Assembly: GCA_947591105.1 (NCBI GenBank)
Contig: CANQDL010000008.1
Location: forward strand, 1 to 33,828
Reading direction: 5' to 3'
Length of the DNA: 33,828 nt
Source: an uncultured Oscillospiraceae bacterium
GTDB taxonomy: Bacteria; Bacillota; Clostridia; Oscillospirales; Oscillospiraceae
In this document: positions 5,669-29,760 of the stretch, in pieces
How positions within the stretch are numbered: position 1 is the stretch's first letter
Layout of the letters: every line of letters starts with the position of its first letter
Made by a program: the position numbers and the translations under genes
The notes under the pieces: model-generated
Databases searched by the model: none
Told to the model about the DNA's origin: nothing
What the model saw: only the letters and a program-made list of their open reading frames with translations

Positions 5669-5703
5669 GCAAACGGACAAATGCCCCCATCCCGGCAGGT
5701 CAT

Positions 5704-5836
5704 TTCTTCTGTCCTTTTGCCTGAGAGATTAAGCGCCTGCGCGCCTTGCCCCTTCGGCCCCCGCATTGGCTATGCGGGCTTCTCCAGAATCCCATCCGCC
5801 GGCAGTCCCCTTCGGTTCTGGCGGCTTCACCTGGCA
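5704..5836 (-). promoter_or_regulatory. Glycine riboswitch (core aptamer about 5704-5795, plus a possible 5' ghost aptamer to 5836)
   Basis: Minus strand TTCTGGAGAAGCCCGC...GGCCGAAGGGGCAAGGC...AATCTCTCAGGCAAAAGGACAGAAG matches gcvT-type aptamer consensus elements. Confidence 0.92.
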
Positions 5837-18296: not shown

Positions 18297-19250
18297 ATGA
18301 TAGACGTTGTGGCGCTGGGCGAGCTGCTCATCGACTTTACATACCAGAGCGCCGACGGGGACGGCTACCCGCTCATGGCGGCCCATCCCGGCGGCGCGCC
18401 GGCGAATTTCCTGGCCGCGCTGGCTAAGCTGGGCGCGTCCACCGCTCTGCTGGGCAAGGTGGGCACGGACGCCTTCGGCACGCTTCTGACCGGCACACTG
18501 AAAAAGGCGGGCATAGAGACCCGCGGCCTTCTGGCGGCGGACGACGTGTTCACCACCTTGGCCTTCGTCACCCTGGACGAGCGGGGCGACAGGGAGTTTT
18601 CCTTTGCCAGAAAGCCCGGCGCGGACACGGCTCTGCGCTTTGAGGAGCTGGATCTGGAGCTCATCGACCAGGCGAAGGTGTTTCACTTCGGCACCCTCTC
18701 CCTGACCGACGAGCCGGCCCGCTCCGCCACCCAAAAGGCGGTGGCCTACGCCCGCCGGCAGGGCAAGCTCATCACCTACGACCCCAACCTGCGCAAGATG
18801 CTGTGGAGCAGCATGGCCCTGGCAAAGGAGCAGATGCTCTGGGGCCTGGGACAGGCGGACGTGGTGAAGATCAGCGACGAGGAAGTGGATTTCCTCTTCG
18901 GCATGAGCCCCGCCGCCGGCGCGGAGCACATCCGCAAGACCTACGGCTGCAAGCTGGTGTTCGTCACCTGCGGCGCCGACGGGTGCGTGTACCGAAACGG
19001 CCAGGCGGCGGGCCAGACCCCCGGTCTGACCGGGCTGGCCGTCACCGACACCACCGGCGCGGGGGACATCTTCGGCGGCAGCGCGGTGTGGAAGCTGCTG
19101 CAGGCCGGCAAGGCCCCGGAGGCGCTCACCGGCCCGGAGCTGGAGGACATCGCCCGGTTCGCCTGCGTGTACGCCGGGCTCTCCACCACCCGTCCCGGCG
19201 GCATATCCAGCGTGCCGTCCTATGACGAGGCGATGGCCTGTCTGCGCTGA
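18297..19250 (+). CDS. PfkB-family carbohydrate kinase (fructokinase-like)
   Basis: MIDVVALGELLIDF, HPGGAPANFLAALAKLGAS, GKVGTDAFG, TDTTGAGDIFGGSAVWKLL. Confidence 0.92.
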   Translation: MIDVVALGELLIDFTYQSADGDGYPLMAAHPGGAPANFLAALAKLGASTALLGKVGTDAFGTLLTGTLKKAGIETRGLLAADDVFTTLAFVTLDERGDREFSFARKPGADTALRFEELDLELIDQAKVFHFGTLSLTDEPARSATQKAVAYARRQGKLITYDPNLRKMLWSSMALAKEQMLWGLGQADVVKISDEEVDFLFGMSPAAGAEHIRKTYGCKLVFVTCGADGCVYRNGQAAGQTPGLTGLAVTDTTGAGDIFGGSAVWKLLQAGKAPEALTGPELEDIARFACVYAGLSTTRPGGISSVPSYDEAMACLR

Positions 19251-19275
19251 CCCAAAAAAGAGAGGAGAGACGCCT

Positions 19276-21672
19276 ATGCTGATCCGGGATTGGACGCTCC
19301 TGTACGGGGAATATGAACCGCTGCCCTGCCAGGCCCCCTGCACGCTCTACAGCGTCCTTTATGAAAGCGGAAAGATCCCCGACCCCTTTTACGGACTGAA
19401 CGAGCGGGCCCTGACGGCCCTGGCGGAAGAGGACTGCGCCTTCACCGCCGTATTCCAGGCGGACGAGGCCCTTCTCGCCCGGCAGTACGTGGAGCTGACC
19501 TTCCAGGGGCTGGACACCATCTGCGCCATCCGCCTGAACGGAAAGCTCCTGGCCCAGGTGCAGAATATGCACCGCTCCTACACCTTCGACGTGAAGGATC
19601 TGCTGCGCTGCGGGGAGAACCGGCTGCGCCTGGATTTCTCCTCCCCCATCCGCTATTTCCGGGAGCGCAACGAGCGGCACTACCTCTACACCAACGACGG
19701 GGACACCCTCCCCGGCGCGGCCCATCTGCGCAAGGCCCTTTATATGTCCGGGTGGGACTGGGGCCCCACCCTGCCCGACATGGGCATCTGGCGGCCGGTC
19801 ACCCTGGAGGGGTACGACACCGACCGGGTGGAGGACGTGGCCATCCTCCAGCGCCACCACCCCGGGGCCGTGGACGTGGAGATCGCCGTGGACACGAAGC
19901 GCGGCGCCGGGTGCCAGGTATACGCCCTGCTGGACGGCCAGCGGGTGCTGTTGGAGGGCGGCCGTGGCGTCGTCACCGTGAAAGAGCCAAAGCTCTGGTG
20001 GGCCAGGGGCTATGGGGAGCCCTTCCTCTACCCGCTGGAGGTGGAGCTTTTAAAGGACGGGCAGGTCATCGACCGAAACCGGCGGCAGATCGGCCTGCGC
20101 ACCCTCACCGTCAGCACCCAGCCCGATCCGGACGGCAAGGGCAGCGAGTTTTGCTTCGTGCTCAACGGGGTGAAGATCTTCGCCATGGGCGCCAACTACG
20201 TGCCCCAGGACAATCTTCTGAGCCGGGTGACAGACGAGCGCCTGGCCGAGATGATGGGCTGGTGCCTGGACGCCAACTTCAACTGCCTGCGTGTCTGGGG
20301 CGGCGGGTATTACCCGGATGACCGCTTCTTCCAGCTGTGCGACGAAAACGGCATCCTGGTGTGGCTGGACTTTATGATCGCCTGCGCCAACGTGCGCCTC
20401 ACTCCCGCATTTGAGGCGGAGTTCATGGCGGAGGCGGAGCAGAATCTCAAGCGCCTGCGCCACCACGCCAGCCTGGCCATCCTGTGCGGCAACAACGAGA
20501 TGGAGCTGGCGGTGCTGGAGTGGCCCGGCGTGGGAGACAGTCAGCTTGTGCGGGAGGATTACATCCGCCTGTACGAGCGGCTGCTGCCCCAGCTGTGCGA
20601 GCGGCTGGCCCCCCAGGTCTTTTACTGGCCCTCCAGTCCCTCCGCCGGCGGCGGCTTCAAAAACACCGGCGACCCGGCCCGGGGCGACAGCCACTACTGG
20701 GCGGTGTGGCACGGCGGTCTTCCCTTCACCGCCTACCGGGAGCTGGATTTTCGCTTCTGCTCCGAATACGGCTTCGAGAGCTTCCCCTCCATGAAGACCG
20801 TCCGCAGCTTCTGCGGCGAGCAGGACATGAACTGCTTTTCCCGGGTCATGGAAAACCACCAGAAGTGCAAGGGCGGCAACGTCAAGATCCTCCGCTACCT
20901 GGCGGACACCTATCTCTATCCCACCAGCTTTGAGAACCTGGTCTACGCCTCCCAGCTGCTGCAGGCGGACGCCATCAAGTACGGCGTGGAGCATTTCCGC
21001 CGCTGCCGGGGCCGCTGCATGGGCTCCGTATACTGGCAGTTCAACGACTGCTGGCCTGTGGCCTCCTGGTCCAGCGTGGACAGCTTCGGCCGATATAAGC
21101 TGCTGCACTACGCGGCAAAGAAGTTCTATGCCCCGGTGGCCATGGCTCTGTTTTTGGAGGGCGGGCGCCTGACGGTGAACATCGCCAACGAGACCATGGC
21201 CCCCTTCCGTGGTAAGGTTCGCCTGTGCCTTTGCAAGGGGGACATGACCGTGCTGGAGGAACACGTCTTCTCCGCCGAAGCGGAGGCCCTGTCCGCGGCG
21301 GACGTGTTCGCCTGCCCGGCCCGGGCGGAAGATCCCTATGACACATATATCTATGCCGACCTCTTCGACGGGGACGGCCGGTTTCTCATGCGCCAGACGG
21401 AGCTTTTCGTGCCGCCGAAGCATTTTGACTGGAAAAAACCCGCCATCTCCGCCGCGTTTGCCGACGGCCCCGACGGGGTCGCCGTCACGCTGCGCTCGGA
21501 CGTGTTCGCCCGGGGCGTCTGCCTCGACTTCGGGGACTTCGACTGCGTGCTCAGCGACAACGGCTTTGCCCTCGTCAGCCCGGAGCCCTATGTAGTCACC
21601 GCACGCACGGAGCACACTGCGGCGGAGCTGGCGGCCTGCTGGACGGTCAAGTCCGTCTATGACATCCGCTGA
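19276..21672 (+). CDS. GH2 beta-mannosidase
   Basis: YMSGWDWGPTLPDMGIWRPVTLEGY, RVWGGGYYPDDRFFQLCDENGILVWLDFMIACA, CGNNEMEL (acid/base), FCSEYGFESFPS (nucleophile). Confidence 0.92.
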   Translation: MLIRDWTLLYGEYEPLPCQAPCTLYSVLYESGKIPDPFYGLNERALTALAEEDCAFTAVFQADEALLARQYVELTFQGLDTICAIRLNGKLLAQVQNMHRSYTFDVKDLLRCGENRLRLDFSSPIRYFRERNERHYLYTNDGDTLPGAAHLRKALYMSGWDWGPTLPDMGIWRPVTLEGYDTDRVEDVAILQRHHPGAVDVEIAVDTKRGAGCQVYALLDGQRVLLEGGRGVVTVKEPKLWWARGYGEPFLYPLEVELLKDGQVIDRNRRQIGLRTLTVSTQPDPDGKGSEFCFVLNGVKIFAMGANYVPQDNLLSRVTDERLAEMMGWCLDANFNCLRVWGGGYYPDDRFFQLCDENGILVWLDFMIACANVRLTPAFEAEFMAEAEQNLKRLRHHASLAILCGNNEMELAVLEWPGVGDSQLVREDYIRLYERLLPQLCERLAPQVFYWPSSPSAGGGFKNTGDPARGDSHYWAVWHGGLPFTAYRELDFRFCSEYGFESFPSMKTVRSFCGEQDMNCFSRVMENHQKCKGGNVKILRYLADTYLYPTSFENLVYASQLLQADAIKYGVEHFRRCRGRCMGSVYWQFNDCWPVASWSSVDSFGRYKLLHYAAKKFYAPVAMALFLEGGRLTVNIANETMAPFRGKVRLCLCKGDMTVLEEHVFSAEAEALSAADVFACPARAEDPYDTYIYADLFDGDGRFLMRQTELFVPPKHFDWKKPAISAAFADGPDGVAVTLRSDVFARGVCLDFGDFDCVLSDNGFALVSPEPYVVTARTEHTAAELAACWTVKSVYDIR

Positions 21673-22442
21673 TGTACGGGCTTCTCATTGCGGGCGCCGA
21701 TCCCGCCGACAGGCAGTCCGCCGCCGCACAGGTGCATAACCTGGCCCCCAGTATGCCGGTCTGGCAGGCGGGCAGCTATGACGAGGCGCTGGCCATGATC
21801 CTGCACCTCCGCCCCCAGGCGGCGCTCATCCCCCTGCGGCTGTCGGCGCGCTCCGGCTGCTCTCTGACGGAGACCATACGGGCCGCGGGACTGGACACCG
21901 CCGTGTGCATCACCTCCTCCAGCGTGGAGCCGGAGAGCATACGCCGGGCCATGCGCGCCGGGGCCCAGGACTACCTGCTCACCCCGCTGAACAGCCAGGA
22001 GCTGAGCGCCTTTCTCCGCCGGGCCTTTCCCGGCGCCGGGCAGGCCATCCTCCCGTCTGAAGATCCCATCCTCCATGTGGAATATGCGTCTCTCTCCCCT
22101 CTCACCGTCCGTCTGCTGCGGATCGTGCAGGAGGATTTCAATAACCCCCCCGTCACCCTCCTTTCCATCTCGGAGCGGCTGAACATGAACAGCAAGTACC
22201 TGGGCCGGGTCTTTCTGCGGGACACGGGCATGAAGCTGTCCCAGTATGTGCTCTGCTGCCGGATGGAGGAGGCCCGCTGGCTCATTGAGACCACCTCTGA
22301 GAAGATCTCCGTCATCGCCGGCATGGTGGGCTACGGTCAGCTCAACCGCTTTTATGTCCATTTCCGATCCTACTTTGGCCTGTCCCCCAGCGCGCTGCGC
22401 CGTGCCGGGGCGGCGGACACATCCCGGGAGGTGCGCGCATGA
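21672..22442 (+). CDS. AraC-family regulator with degenerate receiver-like N-terminal domain
   Basis: N-terminal REC-like fold pattern, C-terminal AraC HTH (VTLLSISERLNMNSKYLGRVFLRDTGMKLSQYV...FYVHFRSYFGLSPSALRR); ATGA overlap with upstream gene. Confidence 0.85.
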   Translation: MYGLLIAGADPADRQSAAAQVHNLAPSMPVWQAGSYDEALAMILHLRPQAALIPLRLSARSGCSLTETIRAAGLDTAVCITSSSVEPESIRRAMRAGAQDYLLTPLNSQELSAFLRRAFPGAGQAILPSEDPILHVEYASLSPLTVRLLRIVQEDFNNPPVTLLSISERLNMNSKYLGRVFLRDTGMKLSQYVLCCRMEEARWLIETTSEKISVIAGMVGYGQLNRFYVHFRSYFGLSPSALRRAGAADTSREVRA

Positions 22443-23107
22443 AGTCGATTCTGGATTTTGATAACCCGTTTATCCAGCTGCTGTGCCGGGTAGGGGATCT
22501 GATGATCGCAAACTTTCTGTTTCTGGTGTGCTGCGTGCCGGTGGTGACGGTGGGCGCCTCTCTGGCCGGGCTCATCAAGGTGGTGCAGAGTCTCTCCCTG
22601 GGCGGGGAGCCGGGGATCGCCAGGACGTTTTTCCGGGGCTTTAAGGAGAATTTCCGCCAGGCCACCGCCCTCTGGCTCATCTTCGCGCTGCTGGTTCTGT
22701 CCCTGGTCTGCGACCTGCTCATCATCCAGACCTACCTCACAGGCACGGCCGCGCTGGCGCTGCGCTGCGCGGTGGCCATATTCGCCCTGGCGATCCTGGC
22801 GGTGGCATCCTATGTCTTCCCGCTGCTGGTGCGGTATGAAAACTCCCTGAAGGAGCACTGCGTCAACGCCCTCATCCTGACCATATGGAAGCTGCCCCGG
22901 ACGCTGGCGCTCACAGCGCTCAACGCCGTGCCCTTCCTGCTGGCCATCTTTCTGCCCGCCACGTTTCTCAAGACCCTGGCCGTGTGGCTGATCGTGGGAT
23001 GCGCCGGGCTTTGCTTTCTGGACTGCTCCCTGCTGCGGCCGGTCCTGGCCCAGCTGGAAGAGCAAAAGGAAACGCCGGAGGCGGACGCCCCCGGCGATGA
23101 AGACTGA
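22439..23107 (+). CDS. YesL/DUF624 family membrane protein
   Basis: MKSILDFDNPFIQLLCRVGDLMIANFLFLVCCVPVVTVGASLAGLIKVV...FFRGFKENFRQAT; ATGA overlap. Confidence 0.87.
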   Translation: MKSILDFDNPFIQLLCRVGDLMIANFLFLVCCVPVVTVGASLAGLIKVVQSLSLGGEPGIARTFFRGFKENFRQATALWLIFALLVLSLVCDLLIIQTYLTGTAALALRCAVAIFALAILAVASYVFPLLVRYENSLKEHCVNALILTIWKLPRTLALTALNAVPFLLAIFLPATFLKTLAVWLIVGCAGLCFLDCSLLRPVLAQLEEQKETPEADAPGDED

Positions 23108-24374: not shown

Positions 24375-24590
24375 TCATTCCGTCTGTTCCTCATCCGGCA
24401 GAAAGACAACAACGCTCTCTGCCTGGCAGTTCAAGATCCTGCACAGCTTTTCAAGCGTGTATAGGGTTATAGAGCGATTGTGTTTCAAGCTGTTGATCGT
24501 ACGGGGGTTGATCTCATATTTGACGATCAGCGCATAAGTAGTCAGCCCGCGCTCGGCCATAGTCCTCCACAGTGGATCATATGAAATCAA
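24375..24590 (-). CDS. Small XRE/Cro-type helix-turn-helix protein
   Basis: 71 aa MISYDPLWRTMAERGLTTYALIVKYEINPRTINSLKHNRSITLYTLEKLCRILNCQAESVVVFLPDEE, typical HTH_26/XRE pattern. Confidence 0.85.
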   Translation of the reverse strand: MISYDPLWRTMAERGLTTYALIVKYEINPRTINSLKHNRSITLYTLEKLCRILNCQAESVVVFLPDEEQTE

Positions 24591-24641: not shown

Positions 24642-24670
24642 TTGAATATGCTGAAAAAAGTATCTATAAT
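24642..24670 (+). promoter_or_regulatory. Candidate promoter for the membrane glycosylation operon
   Basis: TTGAAT - 17 nt - TATAAT in an AT-rich intergenic stretch. Confidence 0.6.
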
Positions 24671-24815
24671 AGGACAGGTGCCCAGCATCTAAAGCCCCTC
24701 TTCTTTTTCCCTTGATTAATCCGCCATATCGGAGTAGAATAATGCTTATTGGATATAAGACGATTTGATGACTTGCATTTTGCTCTGACAGGAGCCGACG
24801 GGGATAGACGCGCCT

Positions 24816-26108
24816 ATGGTTTTCTTCTTCTTGCTGTGTCTGGTGGTGCTGGCACTGGCTTATGTGTGCCTGACGCTGCTCTTTCAGTGCGCGGGGGTGC
24901 CGGCGCTGTCCCTGGGCGGACGCACGCTGCGCTTTGCCCCATCCGGCGGCGGCCGGGGCCAGGTCTTTACCCGCGCCATGGGCCGCAGGGCCGTGCTGTG
25001 GGCGCTGGGGGTGCTGTTCGTCACCTACTCCGTCAGCTTCGTCTATTGTTCCTCCTATTACGGCAAGGTGGATCTGGACATCTTTCTGCGCGCCTGGGAG
25101 AAGTGGGACGCCAGCAACTATATCCGCATCGCCGAGCTGGGCTACGACGGCTTCACCCTCAACGGTATGCACACCACCCTGGTATTCTTTCCCCTGTACC
25201 CCTGGATGATGCGGCTGGTACACCTGGCCGTCGATGACTGGCGGCTGTGCGGCCATATCGTCTCCTGCCTGTGCTATGTGGGGGCCTGCTATGTGTTCGC
25301 CCGCTTGGTGACGGAGGACTTCGGCTGGAGCGCCGCCCGTCTGGCCCTGGCGCTGCTGTCGGCCTATCCCTTCGCCTTTTTCTTCGCGGCCACCTTCGGG
25401 GAGAGCCTGTTTCTGCTGCTGACCGGGCTCTGCTTTTTGTTCATACGCCGGCACCGCTGGCTTCTGGCCGGTCTGACCGGCGCGCTGGCCGCCATGACCC
25501 GGATGCAGGGGCTGGTGCTGCTCCCGGCGGCAGCGGTGGAGTACTGCGTCAGCGAAAGGCCCCTGCAAAAGCTCCGGCGCCGCGACTTTGCCGGTCTGGG
25601 GCGGGACTTCTTGAAAAAGCTGCTGCCGCTGGCGCTCGTTTTCGCGGGCACGGGCGTGTATCTGTATATGAATTGGAAGGTGGACGGCAATCCCTTTCAG
25701 TTCGTCATCTACCAGCAGAAGATCTGGAACCAGAGCTTTGCGCCGCTGCCCAAGTGCCTGGCCACCATATGGGAATACATCCACCGCCGGTGGAACCAGG
25801 ATCGGCTGTACGTGCTGTGGGCGCCGGAGCTGGCGGTGTTTCTTTTGAGCCTTGCCTCGCTGCTGTACGCCCGGCGGCGGCTTCCCCCCGCGTGGACGGC
25901 CTATTTTCTCTTCTATCTTGTGATGAACTATTCCCTCGCCTGGCCCATCAGCTGCGGACGCTATATGGCCTGCGCCTTTCCCCTGTTCGCCGCCCTGGGC
26001 CGCGCCGGCGAGCGCCATATGGGAGCCGGTCTTTTTATGATCGTGCTGTTCGCCATATTCCAGACGGCCTATCTGTTCACCTATTTTGCCGGCGGCCAGG
26101 TCATGTGA
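24816..26108 (+). CDS. PIG-V/Gpi18-like (GT-C) membrane mannosyltransferase-family protein, paralogue 1
   Basis: WDASNYIRIAELGYDG, VFFPLYPWM, SAYPFAFFFAATFGESLFLLLTGL, AMTRMQGLVLL, ISCGRYMAC. Confidence 0.78.
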   Translation: MVFFFLLCLVVLALAYVCLTLLFQCAGVPALSLGGRTLRFAPSGGGRGQVFTRAMGRRAVLWALGVLFVTYSVSFVYCSSYYGKVDLDIFLRAWEKWDASNYIRIAELGYDGFTLNGMHTTLVFFPLYPWMMRLVHLAVDDWRLCGHIVSCLCYVGACYVFARLVTEDFGWSAARLALALLSAYPFAFFFAATFGESLFLLLTGLCFLFIRRHRWLLAGLTGALAAMTRMQGLVLLPAAAVEYCVSERPLQKLRRRDFAGLGRDFLKKLLPLALVFAGTGVYLYMNWKVDGNPFQFVIYQQKIWNQSFAPLPKCLATIWEYIHRRWNQDRLYVLWAPELAVFLLSLASLLYARRRLPPAWTAYFLFYLVMNYSLAWPISCGRYMACAFPLFAALGRAGERHMGAGLFMIVLFAIFQTAYLFTYFAGGQVM

Positions 26109-26133
26109 GCGCCGCCGGCCGGAGGATATACCA

Positions 26134-27351
26134 ATGGGCAAAAACAAGCTCTCCCAATACTTTCCGCCCCCGCTGCGCACCCTTCTGGCGCTGCTGGTCG
26201 TCATGATGACCGGGTACTTTCTCATGAGCGATCTGATGGGCGGAACGCTCTTTCAGCACCAGTACTGGGACAGCTATACCCTGCAGACCTATAACTGGCT
26301 CCATGGCCGGACGTATCTGCCGGACGGGGCGAAATACACCTATCTGGAGCTGGCCATTTATCAGGGCCGGTACTATGTGTCCTTCCCCCCGCTGCCCTCT
26401 GTGTTTCTCATCCCCTTCGTGGCCCTTTGCGGCCTGGATACCCCCAACAACATGGTCATGGCCGCCTACGGTCTGGCCGCGGCGGAGCTGGCCTACGCCA
26501 TCATGCTCCGCCGGGGGCGGAAGCCCACCGTGGCCGCTTTCTGGGCGCTGGTGTGCGTGTGGGGATGCAACATGCTGTGGATGACCACCAACGCCGGCGT
26601 GTGGTTCCAGGCCCAGGCCCTGAACATGGTCATGTGTCTGGCGGCGGTGCTGTGCGCCATCAGTGGACGCAAGGCCCTGTCCACCACCTTCCTGGCGCTG
26701 GCGGTGGGCTGCCGGCCCTTCAGCGCCGTATTCCTGCCGGTGTTCGTGCTGCTGTTCGCCTGGAACGAGCGGAAAGCCCACGGCGGGTTCTGGAAGAGCT
26801 GTTTTGCCCAGTGGCGGTGCCTGATCGGGCCGGTGCTCATCGGCGCCTGCTATATGGCCTATAACTATGTCCGGTTCGATGACCCCCTGGAGTTTGGCCA
26901 CAACTACCTGCCGGAGTTCGTCCGGGCCGAGCACGGCCAGTTCCACTGGAGCTACCTGCTGCCCAACCTGAAGCATCTGTTCACCCCGGTGACCATGGAG
27001 GATCTGCAACTGTCCTTCCCCCTGTTCCAGGGCTTTATCTTCTTTGTGGCCAACCCCATCTTTATCATCTGGTTCTTCCGCTGCGCCATCAACGCCACCC
27101 GTCGGCCGGTCAGCGCGGAGGGATTGCTGCTGTCGGCCGGTATGCTGGCGGAGCTGGTCTGCATCTGTATGCACCGTACCATGGGCGCATGGCAGTTCGG
27201 CTCCCGCTACAGCTGCGATCTGATCCCCTTCCTCTATATGTATCTTGCCGACCGGGGAAAGAAGCGCCCCTCCAACTGGGAGCTGGCCCTGGGCGGTATG
27301 GCGGTGGCCTTCAACGCCTACGGCGCGCTCTATATGTATTTCTACGGCTGA
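26134..27351 (+). CDS. Multi-pass membrane protein, putative GT-C glycosyltransferase
   Basis: About 405 aa, many TM helices; QYWDSYTLQTYNWLHGRTYL, YVSFPPLPSVFLIPFV, GCRPFSAVFLPVF; start at 26134 after GGAGG. Confidence 0.6.
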   Translation: MGKNKLSQYFPPPLRTLLALLVVMMTGYFLMSDLMGGTLFQHQYWDSYTLQTYNWLHGRTYLPDGAKYTYLELAIYQGRYYVSFPPLPSVFLIPFVALCGLDTPNNMVMAAYGLAAAELAYAIMLRRGRKPTVAAFWALVCVWGCNMLWMTTNAGVWFQAQALNMVMCLAAVLCAISGRKALSTTFLALAVGCRPFSAVFLPVFVLLFAWNERKAHGGFWKSCFAQWRCLIGPVLIGACYMAYNYVRFDDPLEFGHNYLPEFVRAEHGQFHWSYLLPNLKHLFTPVTMEDLQLSFPLFQGFIFFVANPIFIIWFFRCAINATRRPVSAEGLLLSAGMLAELVCICMHRTMGAWQFGSRYSCDLIPFLYMYLADRGKKRPSNWELALGGMAVAFNAYGALYMYFYG

Positions 27352-27365
27352 ACGAGGGATTTCGT

Positions 27366-28499
27366 ATGTTCACAAGAGACGACACAAAGGCCGTCAAGGG
27401 CGTGGCGGTGCTGCTCATGCTGCTGCACCACCTGGCGGCGTTTCCCGAACGGTACCCGGTGGACTTTGCCGGATTCACCTCGCTGATCCCCGGCTTTGTG
27501 GAGAATGGCTATCTGAACGATCTTGCGATGGACGCGCTGGTGTGCGTGCCGCTGTTCTTTTTCCTGGGCGGGTACGGACTTTATAAGCGCATGCAGGCCG
27601 GCACGTTCCGTCTGCTGGAGGCGGTCATCGGCCTTTACAAGCGGTACTGGAAGGTCTTTTTCGTCTTTGTCCCCATCGCCTTTCTGTGCTTTGCCCGGCC
27701 GGCGGCGCTGCTGCGGCCCTTCTGCTCCCGGTACCTGATCTCCTCCCCCAAGCAGTTTTTCATCGACCTGGCGGGCAACTTCGTCGGCTATAAGTCCACC
27801 TTCAACGGGGAGTGGTGGTTTTTCGGCTATTATCTGTGCACACTGCCCCTGGGGTGTCTGTTCTGCCGGCTTTCGGAGCGGCGGCGAGGATTTTTGGCCG
27901 ACCTCTTCCTGGTGTTCGGCATCGACATCCTGACCCAGGGCGTCTTTCCCGGCCTGGCCAGGACGACCGCCCTGTCCGGACTGAACAGCAACCTCTACTT
28001 CTCCCGCTTCTGCCTGCTGAACAAGTACGTGCCCGCCTTTTTCTCCGGCATCGTCTTTGCCCGTTACGACGTGCTCGTTCTGCTCAAGCGCCGCATCCGC
28101 GCCATGCGCCTGCCGGCATGGCTCACCTCTCTTGCCGGGACGGCCGTCGTGCTGATCTGCCGGCAGTATGTGTTCTCTGACATGGCCAGCGCTGATGTGG
28201 TGCTGGTGCCGCTGCTGGCGGCCTTTCTCTCCGCGCTGCTGGACTGCCTGGCGCCCCTGCGGCTGGGCTTTTCCTTCCTGGGCAGGCACAGCACCAACAT
28301 GTGGCTGGTGCACACCTTCTTCTGCTACTATTTTCTGGAGTTCACCAAGCTGGTCTACTGCACCGGGTGCGTGTGGATCGACCTGGCGGTGCTGACGGCG
28401 CTGTCTCTGGGCGCGTCGGTGCTGCTGGAGCTGCTGTACAGGTATCTGGGTATGCTTCTGTCCCTGCTCCGCCGGGACAGAACGCCGGCCGCCGTCTGA
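27366..28499 (+). CDS. Acyltransferase-3/OafA-like membrane acyltransferase
   Basis: VKGVAVLLMLLHHLAAFPERY, FFFLGGYGLYKRM, FNGEWWFFGYYL, LGRHSTNMWLVHTFFCYYF. Confidence 0.8.
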   Translation: MFTRDDTKAVKGVAVLLMLLHHLAAFPERYPVDFAGFTSLIPGFVENGYLNDLAMDALVCVPLFFFLGGYGLYKRMQAGTFRLLEAVIGLYKRYWKVFFVFVPIAFLCFARPAALLRPFCSRYLISSPKQFFIDLAGNFVGYKSTFNGEWWFFGYYLCTLPLGCLFCRLSERRRGFLADLFLVFGIDILTQGVFPGLARTTALSGLNSNLYFSRFCLLNKYVPAFFSGIVFARYDVLVLLKRRIRAMRLPAWLTSLAGTAVVLICRQYVFSDMASADVVLVPLLAAFLSALLDCLAPLRLGFSFLGRHSTNMWLVHTFFCYYFLEFTKLVYCTGCVWIDLAVLTALSLGASVLLELLYRYLGMLLSLLRRDRTPAAV

Positions 28500-28518
28500 C
28501 ATTCCGGAGGTTTTCCTA

Positions 28519-29760
28519 ATGCGCGTGCTTCTCTGGCTCACATCCAGCGCCGCCATGGCGGCGCTGTTGGCGTTTCTCGCCCTGCGGGCCATGGGAGAGC
28601 TGCTGGGGGTGAAGCTGCGCCCGGCCCTGGAGGCCCAGGCCCCAGCGCCCGACGAGCCCGGCCGGCGCTCTCTCGCCGGATGGACTTGGCCGGCCGTTTT
28701 TCTCGCCGGTCTGGCCGTGCTGTGGCTGGGCGCCTTTCTGGCATACCAAAGGGTGATGGGCACCACCGCCGGCTTCCTCCCCTACTACTGGCAGCGATTC
28801 ACCCAGACCGGTGACAGCGCCTATTACCTCTTCCTGGCGGAAAACGGCTACGTGTCCGCTGGCGAGTGGGTGAACGCCATCGTGTTCTATCCCCTGTACC
28901 CGCTGCTGGTGCGGATCTTCGGCGGCGTCATAGGCGGGCGGTATATGCTGGCGGGGGTGGTCATCTCCCAGGTGTGCTACGGTTTTTCCTCGGTGATCCT
29001 GGCCAAGCTGGCCGTCCGGGAATGCGCCCACCCGTGGGCAGCGCTGGCGGCCTACTGGCTCTACCCCTTCGGCTTCTTCTGCCAGGGCGTGTTCACCGAG
29101 GGGCTCTTTCTGCTGTTGAACCTGTCCGGACTCTACCTCCTGCTCCGGCGGCGCTGGCTGGCGGCGGGTCTGGCGGGGTTTTTGTGCGCCCTCACCCGGG
29201 TGCAGGGGGTGCTGCTGCTCCTGCCGGGGATCTACTGCGCCTGGCGCGTCTTCCGGAGGGACGGCTGGTGCTGGCGTTATCTGGCCGCGGGCGCGCCGCT
29301 GCTGGGCTTCGGGGTCTATCTGTGCATCAACAGGGCCGTGTGCGGGAGCTTTTTCGCCTTCCAGTACTACGAGAGCATCGAGCCCTGGTACCAGTCCGTC
29401 CAGTGGCTGGGCGACACCATTGTCCAGCAGCTGGACATGGCCATGCAATACCCGGATCTGGCCAAGTGGATCTACTGGCCCCAGATGGCCCTATACTACA
29501 TCGGAGCGGCGCTGCTGCTGTACGGCTTCTGGCGAAAGGTGGACAACGCCTGGCTTTTGTATGGCGGGGCCTACCTGGGCATGTGCTACACCGCCGGGTG
29601 GCTCATCAGCGGCGGGCGGTACATGCTGGGGTGCCTGCCCATGTACCTGTGCGTGGGGCGGATAAAAAGCCCCGCCGCCCGGTATAGTTTGCTGGCGGCG
29701 GAGCTGTGTATCTTTGGCCTCATGTATGTTTATTTCATGCAGGGCCAGGCCATCATGTAG
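28519..29760 (+). CDS. PIG-V/Gpi18-like (GT-C) membrane glycosyltransferase-family protein, paralogue 2
   Basis: GDSAYYLFLAENGYVS, IVFYPLYPLLVRIF, YPFGFFCQGVFTEGLFLLLNLSGLYLLLRRRW, ALTRVQGVLLLLPG, LISGGRYML; collinear with the gene at 24816. Confidence 0.75.
   Translation: MRVLLWLTSSAAMAALLAFLALRAMGELLGVKLRPALEAQAPAPDEPGRRSLAGWTWPAVFLAGLAVLWLGAFLAYQRVMGTTAGFLPYYWQRFTQTGDSAYYLFLAENGYVSAGEWVNAIVFYPLYPLLVRIFGGVIGGRYMLAGVVISQVCYGFSSVILAKLAVRECAHPWAALAAYWLYPFGFFCQGVFTEGLFLLLNLSGLYLLLRRRWLAAGLAGFLCALTRVQGVLLLLPGIYCAWRVFRRDGWCWRYLAAGAPLLGFGVYLCINRAVCGSFFAFQYYESIEPWYQSVQWLGDTIVQQLDMAMQYPDLAKWIYWPQMALYYIGAALLLYGFWRKVDNAWLLYGGAYLGMCYTAGWLISGGRYMLGCLPMYLCVGRIKSPAARYSLLAAELCIFGLMYVYFMQGQAIM

Follow-up and report, generated by a model that had tools for sequence, protein, structure and literature searches.

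Four consecutive membrane-protein genes, here called A to D, on a contig from an uncultured Oscillospiraceae bacterium (GenBank assembly GCA_947591105.1, contig CANQDL010000008.1) probably form an extracytoplasmic glycan-modification operon that was ancestrally controlled by a BlaI-type repressor and an M56-family membrane protease. We put the probability of this reading at roughly 0.6. The window, by which we mean the whole stretch of 33,828 nucleotides (nt) analyzed, is an entire contig (C8) of a 2.23-Mb draft genome with an estimated completeness of 78%. The four same-strand open reading frames are separated by gaps of exactly 25, 14, and 19 nt. A first-pass annotation, made from the letters of the window, had placed four such frames here and called them an operon; their location, order, and gaps are confirmed, and the spacing fits an operon.

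24816–26108 (+): gene A, 430-amino acid (aa) membrane protein of predicted GT-C fold, with a PMT_2 match, distant relative of PIG-V
26134–27351 (+): gene B, 405-aa membrane protein of predicted GT-C fold, core of the set, 0 Pfam matches
27366–28499 (+): gene C, 377-aa membrane acyltransferase of the acyltransferase-3 family (PF01757)
28519–29760 (+): gene D, 413-aa membrane protein, putatively of GT-C type, ancient homologue of A

In the mechanism that we propose, A, B, and D would work on the outer side of the membrane, moving sugars from polyprenyl-phosphate carriers to an exported acceptor; a secondary cell-wall polymer or a lipoglycan is the most likely one. C would O-acylate the same glycan. 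GT2 synthases and GtrA-type flippases, whose genes lie elsewhere in the genome, would supply the donors. The operon of the sister species begins with the gene of a BlaI-type repressor, which, judging from the promoter, would repress it; an M56 membrane protease devoid of a penicillin-binding sensor domain would release the repressor. In the window species, the repressor–protease pair and the operators appear to be gone, and the operon is probably expressed constitutively.

GT-C-type and acyltransferase proteins

A and B are predicted to belong to the GT-C superfamily, with a multi-pass fold whose first loop is extracytoplasmic. AlphaFold2 models, built from alignments of the window proteins and their relatives, reached predicted local distance difference test scores of 94.6 for A and 86.1 for B. 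Searched against the PDB with Foldseek, the A model returned an oligosaccharyltransferase, ALG12, ArnT, and ALG9 as its top matches. The top match of the B model was PimE (E = 3.7e-4, template modeling (TM) score about 0.45), and its further matches included oligosaccharyltransferases, GPI mannosyltransferase I (PIG-M), ALG12, Pmt4, and ArnT. The TM-scores for A and B, at about 0.4 to 0.5, back the superfamily and no particular activity. The models agree with the earlier description of B as GT-C-like; D is a candidate for the same fold through its homology to A alone. Sequence searches of the PDB gave no meaningful match for A and B (single sequences and profiles) or for C (profile). Mycobacterial PimE, a GT87 enzyme, is the closest solved fold to B, but B is only 15% identical to it, and a single weak GT87 match (E = 0.016) was found among 23 B homologues.

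The conserved residues include acidic ones. In about 80 diverse homologues of B, residues E72, R194, H256, E261, H347, R358, and D362 are invariant or nearly so; E72, invariant in 80 homologues, may be catalytic. Across 29 homologues of A and D, the invariant positions (A numbering) are D98, E196, T228-R229, G232, S379, and R382-Y383; the acidic D98 (29/29) may likewise be catalytic. The acyltransferase assignment of C is borne out by its match to Acyl_transf_3 (PF01757; 54.6 bits against a cutoff of 31). The N-terminal His region of acyltransferase-3 proteins is present in C, and K11-G12 and H21-H22 are invariant in 13 of 13 homologues.

A and D are collinear homologues, as the first-pass annotation had it, with 34% identity over 303 aa (E = 3e-24), and all of the shared motifs listed for them are present. 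A matches PMT_2 (PF13231; 35.2 bits, cutoff 26.1), and D matches no Pfam family. In the tree, the two proteins fall into separate clades with full support, D grouping with the D genes of Gemmiger and Fournierella; some branches are long and were flagged by the tree program. A recent tandem duplication giving A and D was ruled out, as these well-supported clades, some long branches notwithstanding, are older than the genus. One D-type gene (L096:6157-7381, minus strand, genome G095) is broken into two overlapping frames, probably by a frameshift or an assembly error.

Gene order among relatives and candidate donor genes

A scan of GTDB species genomes yielded 159 relatives of B, of which 79 loci were kept. 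The closest comparison set, the relatives of the window's genome, consists of uncultured Oscillospiraceae, most of whose genomes bear 'Lapin' isolate labels; the main-clade sample comprises 21 sister loci (L058–L078), and the genus sample 35 genomes, including the window's own. B is present in 29 of these 35 genomes. Among the sister loci, B occurs in 21 of 21, D in 18, C in 12, and A in 5, the counts for D, C, and A being minima because some loci stop at contig edges. The complete A-B-C-D order is found in three (L071, L073, L077), so that the four-gene order, whose conservation the first-pass annotation proposed to check, is kept in just 3 of the 21. B is the constant core of the set and not a side component; D is nearly constant, and A and C are optional.

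The operon occupies more than one chromosomal position, with its internal order unchanged. In a second clade (L079–L083, L085), B adjoins rpsI, and A, C, and D are missing. Beyond the genus, Gemmiger and Fournierella (L173, L174, L176, L177) carry a D-type gene after B. In three other Clostridia (L189, L194, L197), B is preceded by an A/D-type gene, with a GT2 gene directly upstream (two in L197), and in two further Clostridia (L182, L184) an acyltransferase-3 gene lies directly upstream of B. B is thus repeatedly found, in different taxa, beside a gene for an A/D-type GT-C protein, an acyltransferase, or a GT2, which suggests that B and its partners share a pathway.

The operon itself contains no donor synthase or flippase gene, GT2 linkage being confined to the distant relatives. 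The window's own genome holds eleven PF00535 and three GtrA matches. Among these genes, a 366-aa GT2-GtrA fusion (contig C45) is a candidate donor synthase/flippase, and a 314-aa GtrB-like GT2 (contig C3) is a candidate donor synthase. The reported lack of a cytosolic glycosyltransferase and flippase therefore holds inside the operon and not for the genome, and the search for a donor synthase elsewhere, proposed with it, yields these candidates. GT-C enzymes decorate exported glycans with sugars from polyprenyl phosphates (PMC11127046, PMC5836110, PMC7389260). The set resembles three-component glycosylation systems (GtrA/GtrB/Gtr, CsbB-GtcA-YfhO, GT136) in its GT-C enzymes and in the GT2 genes that adjoin it in distant relatives. 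It differs in that one operon can encode as many as three GT-C proteins along with an acyltransferase, in the missing linkage to a donor synthase or flippase in this genus, and in the BlaI/M56-type control of the sister species. Fold and family lend good support to the general class, GT-C glycosyltransfer combined with extracytoplasmic O-acylation.

BlaI/M56 genes and putative operators in sister species, and their apparent loss in the window

In 13 sister loci (L058, L064–L068, L070–L073, L075, L077, L078), genes for a BlaI protein (PF03965, Penicillinase_R) and an M56 protein (PF05569) lie directly upstream of the set on the same strand. A fourteenth locus (L060) has M56 alone, at a contig edge, and the sequence of L062 begins too near B to judge. 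The blaI and M56 genes overlap by 4 nt in 13 of 13 loci, and the next gene starts 2 to 93 nt past M56; from this overlap and spacing, the (A)-B-(C)-D genes look like the tail of an autoregulated operon. HExxH is intact in the M56 proteins, and in all 13 the tail past the last membrane helix measures 27 to 176 aa. No penicillin-binding sensor domain was detected, Pfam finding M56 only in the L065 and L067 proteins scanned. The longer tails have a high content of Pro and Thr (40–45% in the four longest), and those of L058, L065, and L070 are short and show no such enrichment.

Control by BlaI and BlaR1 is best known from beta-lactam resistance. The sister-species pair resembles BlaI/BlaR1 and MecI/MecR1 in uniting a Penicillinase_R repressor with an M56 protease of intact HExxH, in its overlapping genes, and in its own promoter carrying two operators. 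It differs in its short-tailed M56, which has no counterpart of the penicillin-binding protein-like sensor domain of the BlaR1 architecture (PMC9834060), and in its operator, TTCTA-N6-TAGAA, which is not the canonical BlaI/CopY operator TACANNTGTA (PMC7253601). The genes downstream also differ, being putative glycosyltransferases with no beta-lactamase. All 13 sister promoters have the form CTTGAC-N18-TAGAAT with the dyad TTCTA-N6-TAGAA over the -10 element and a second dyad 9 to 11 nt downstream of the first (right half TAAAA in L071 and L077). The canonical TACANNTGTA occurs in none of the 13 and is also absent from the window.

Two complementary searches located further operators in the genus. 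A double-site pattern with 7- to 15-nt spacing was found in 14 of the 35 genomes, at the operon promoter in 13 and, in the fourteenth (G167), before a blaI-M56 pair whose available sequence ends within M56; a control pattern had 0 occurrences genus-wide. This pattern could not catch a spacing of 1 to 2 nt, and its result is no evidence for one operator location per genome. A search for single TTCTA-N6-TAGAA sites revealed one further operator site in 12 genomes, with two exact copies 1 to 2 nt apart in 10 of them (three copies in G179) and one exact copy beside a degenerate neighbor in G153 and G151. In four species without A in the operon (G182, G163, G175, G179), this second site precedes an A-type gene, 49% identical to window A, together with a gene for a 492-aa PMT_2-type GT-C protein; in G167, it precedes the 492-aa type alone. 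In the remaining seven (G178, G174, G170, G169, G157, G153, G151), it precedes a gene for an M1-peptidase-family lipoprotein, followed in G157 by an A-type gene. In this search the control pattern occurs 0 to 2 times per genome, which leaves an isolated single site with little evidential value; the second site draws its weight from the tandem arrangement and the repeated gene context. Single sites elsewhere are partly chance or belong to other regulators. One such site lies directly before B in G173.

Several individual sites and genes may be recorded here. The M1 lipoprotein gene stands behind TTCTA-N6-TAGAA at L225, L226, L227, L228, L231, L233, and L234, and its relative in the window's genome (C2:3582-5015) is just 27% identical. 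Another BlaI-like gene has its own operator variant, TTCTAACGTGTTAGAA or TTCTAATGTGTTAGAA (L236:3198, L237:3512), and several BlaI paralogues that use different sites seem to exist in the genus. A single site, TTCTATAATTTTAGAA, is common to two genomes (L238:3588 in G179 and C8:13393-13408 in G175).

The region upstream of gene A in the window contains the following features.

24642–24670 (+): promoter-like site TTGAAT-17-TATAAT, 10/12 in a consensus scan
24712–24740 (+): TTGATT-17-TAGAAT, apparently what is left of a BlaI-type operon promoter; CGGAGTAGAAT is retained, and the left arm of the operator is gone
24745–24759 (+): perfect inverted repeat CTTAT-TGGAT-ATAAG, close to the position of the second operator in the sister alignment
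24375–24590 (−): small Cro/C1-type (HTH_26) DNA-binding protein (PF13443, 47.3 bits, cutoff 22), divergent from the operon

With a profile of the 13 sister promoters, positions 24711–24740 (CTTGATTAATCCGCCATATCGGAGTAGAAT) score 15.7. The next best score in the window is 1.8, 127,956 positions in other contigs of the genome reach at most 8.4, and 0 of 2000 local shuffles attain 15.7. The promoter proposed by the first-pass annotation does exist at 24642–24670, but such sites are at chance level in the stretch (three found versus 1.8 in shuffles, standard deviation 1.1); the site at 24712–24740 is the better candidate because it is nearer gene A and homologous to the sister operon promoter. The blaI-M56 pair is absent from the window locus. 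Exact TTCTA-N6-TAGAA was found nowhere in the window's genome, a 78% complete draft, and with up to two mismatches it was not found near the operon. Locus L061, the sister of the window in the D tree with moderate support (81/81), also has no blaI-M56 and shows a similar relic (score 14.1) directly before B.

We read these data as indicating that the window species lost the regulator and the operators and kept a decayed copy of the promoter. The inverted repeat at 24745–24759 may be a decayed operator or a new or altered site. Other BlaI-family proteins are encoded elsewhere in the genome, the three best being 30–55% identical to the cluster BlaI, and a regulator copy may act in trans, the draft genome being incomplete. 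The regulatory half of the system (BlaI/M56, the operators, and the second site) was overlooked in the first-pass annotation because it is deleted in the window species.

Decoration by extracytoplasmic GT-C enzymes and switching by BlaI/M56 are known separately (PMC11127046, PMC5836110, PMC9834060); the open-access texts searched contain no description of GT-C genes under BlaI control, in combination with this operator and a sensor-less M56. In these gut bacteria, a repressor–protease architecture with another operator and no penicillin sensor heads an outward-facing sugar-transfer set, an arrangement hinting that an extracellular signal normally switches the decoration of envelope glycans. 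If so, such decoration would be tied to a proteolytic signaling switch, and the sister loci would give access to the inducers of M56/BlaI pairs that lack a sensor. In the window, this switch appears to have been lost, whereas the enzymes and a remnant of the promoter persist. A far more speculative idea, to which we give very little credence, is that the pair monitors envelope glycosylation itself: the extracellular M56 tail, Pro/Thr-rich in several species, would be glycosylated by the GT-C proteins or bind their product, under-glycosylation would lead to BlaI release and more enzyme, and the window species would be a natural mutant without this control.

Alternative readings and neighboring genes

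Several observations weigh against a BlaI/M56-controlled glycan-modification operon. B matches no Pfam family, its Asp46 is replaced by Asn in 22 of about 80 homologues (about a quarter), and GT-C folds are also found in non-catalytic proteins such as PIG-U. A and C are absent from many sister loci, and the four genes are therefore no obligate unit; the donor synthase is unlinked to the operon in this genus. The blaI-M56 pair is missing next to the genes in six sister loci (L059, L061, L063, L069, L074, L076), as it is beside the lone B of the second clade, and BlaI is assigned to TTCTA-N6-TAGAA from position only.

An alternative that we consider unlikely is that the set glycosylates exported proteins, by PMT-like O-glycosylation of Thr or Ser in Pro-rich stretches, with lipoproteins among the substrates. 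The PMT_2 matches of A and of the second-site GT-C protein would suit this, but PMT_2 is a broad GT-C family that includes lipid- and polymer-modifying enzymes. The M1 lipoprotein gene has the same operators, and Pro and Thr are abundant in the longer M56 tails, though not in the short ones of L058, L065, and L070. The acyltransferase-3 partners suit a glycan better than a protein.

Still less probable, in our view, is the first-pass proposal that A and D are PIG-V/Gpi18-like (PF04188, GT76) enzymes that draw on a lipid-phosphate donor to attach two mannoses, one after the other, to a glycolipid that C then acylates, giving a lipid like a phosphatidylinositol mannoside or a glycosylphosphatidylinositol (GPI). 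When 29 relatives of A and D were scanned singly, 18 matched PMT_2 and 10 matched PF04188 (best E = 4.5e-9), among them the A relatives L088, L091, and L092 with 25–31 bits against a cutoff of 22.4. Inspected individually, the PF04188 matches are all on the A side and cover the N-terminal half of the profile. The window's own A, B, and D are not matched by PF04188, A and D not even at E<=1, and the D relatives tested matched neither PF04188 nor PMT_2; GT76 membership of A and D is thus not upheld. Searched with the profile, the window's genome has 0 matches above cutoff, and 196 genomes of the class have few. The Foldseek matches of A and B include PimE, PIG-M, ALG12, and ALG9, and an acyltransferase is present in the operon, but the same searches also return arabinosyl-, aminoarabinosyl-, and oligosaccharyltransferases, and the constant gene is B, not A and D. 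Nothing here indicates mannose or a lipid or GPI-like acceptor, and two successive mannosyl transfers have no specific support.

GT-C proteins and acyltransferase-3 enzymes also occur in exopolysaccharide and capsule pathways, yet a role of the genes in polymer assembly, as opposed to decoration after assembly, seems similarly improbable, since the surroundings of the set, in the window and in the sister loci examined, showed no recognizable gene for a polymerase, a flippase, an initiating transferase, or chain-length control, and the set sits at different chromosomal sites without such genes.

The remainder of the window adds a few further features. Defense-system models (PADLOC) gave 0 matches. 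Rfam places no RNA family at the operon and just two elsewhere in the window, a T-box leader at 1970–2206 (−; 105 bits) and a glycine riboswitch at 5699–5797 (−; 59.4 bits). Upstream of the operon, at 19222–23107 (+), lie consecutive genes for a GH2 family protein with mannosidase-type Ig domains, an AraC-type response regulator, and a DUF624 protein, a cluster that looks like sugar-use genes with no relation to the operon.

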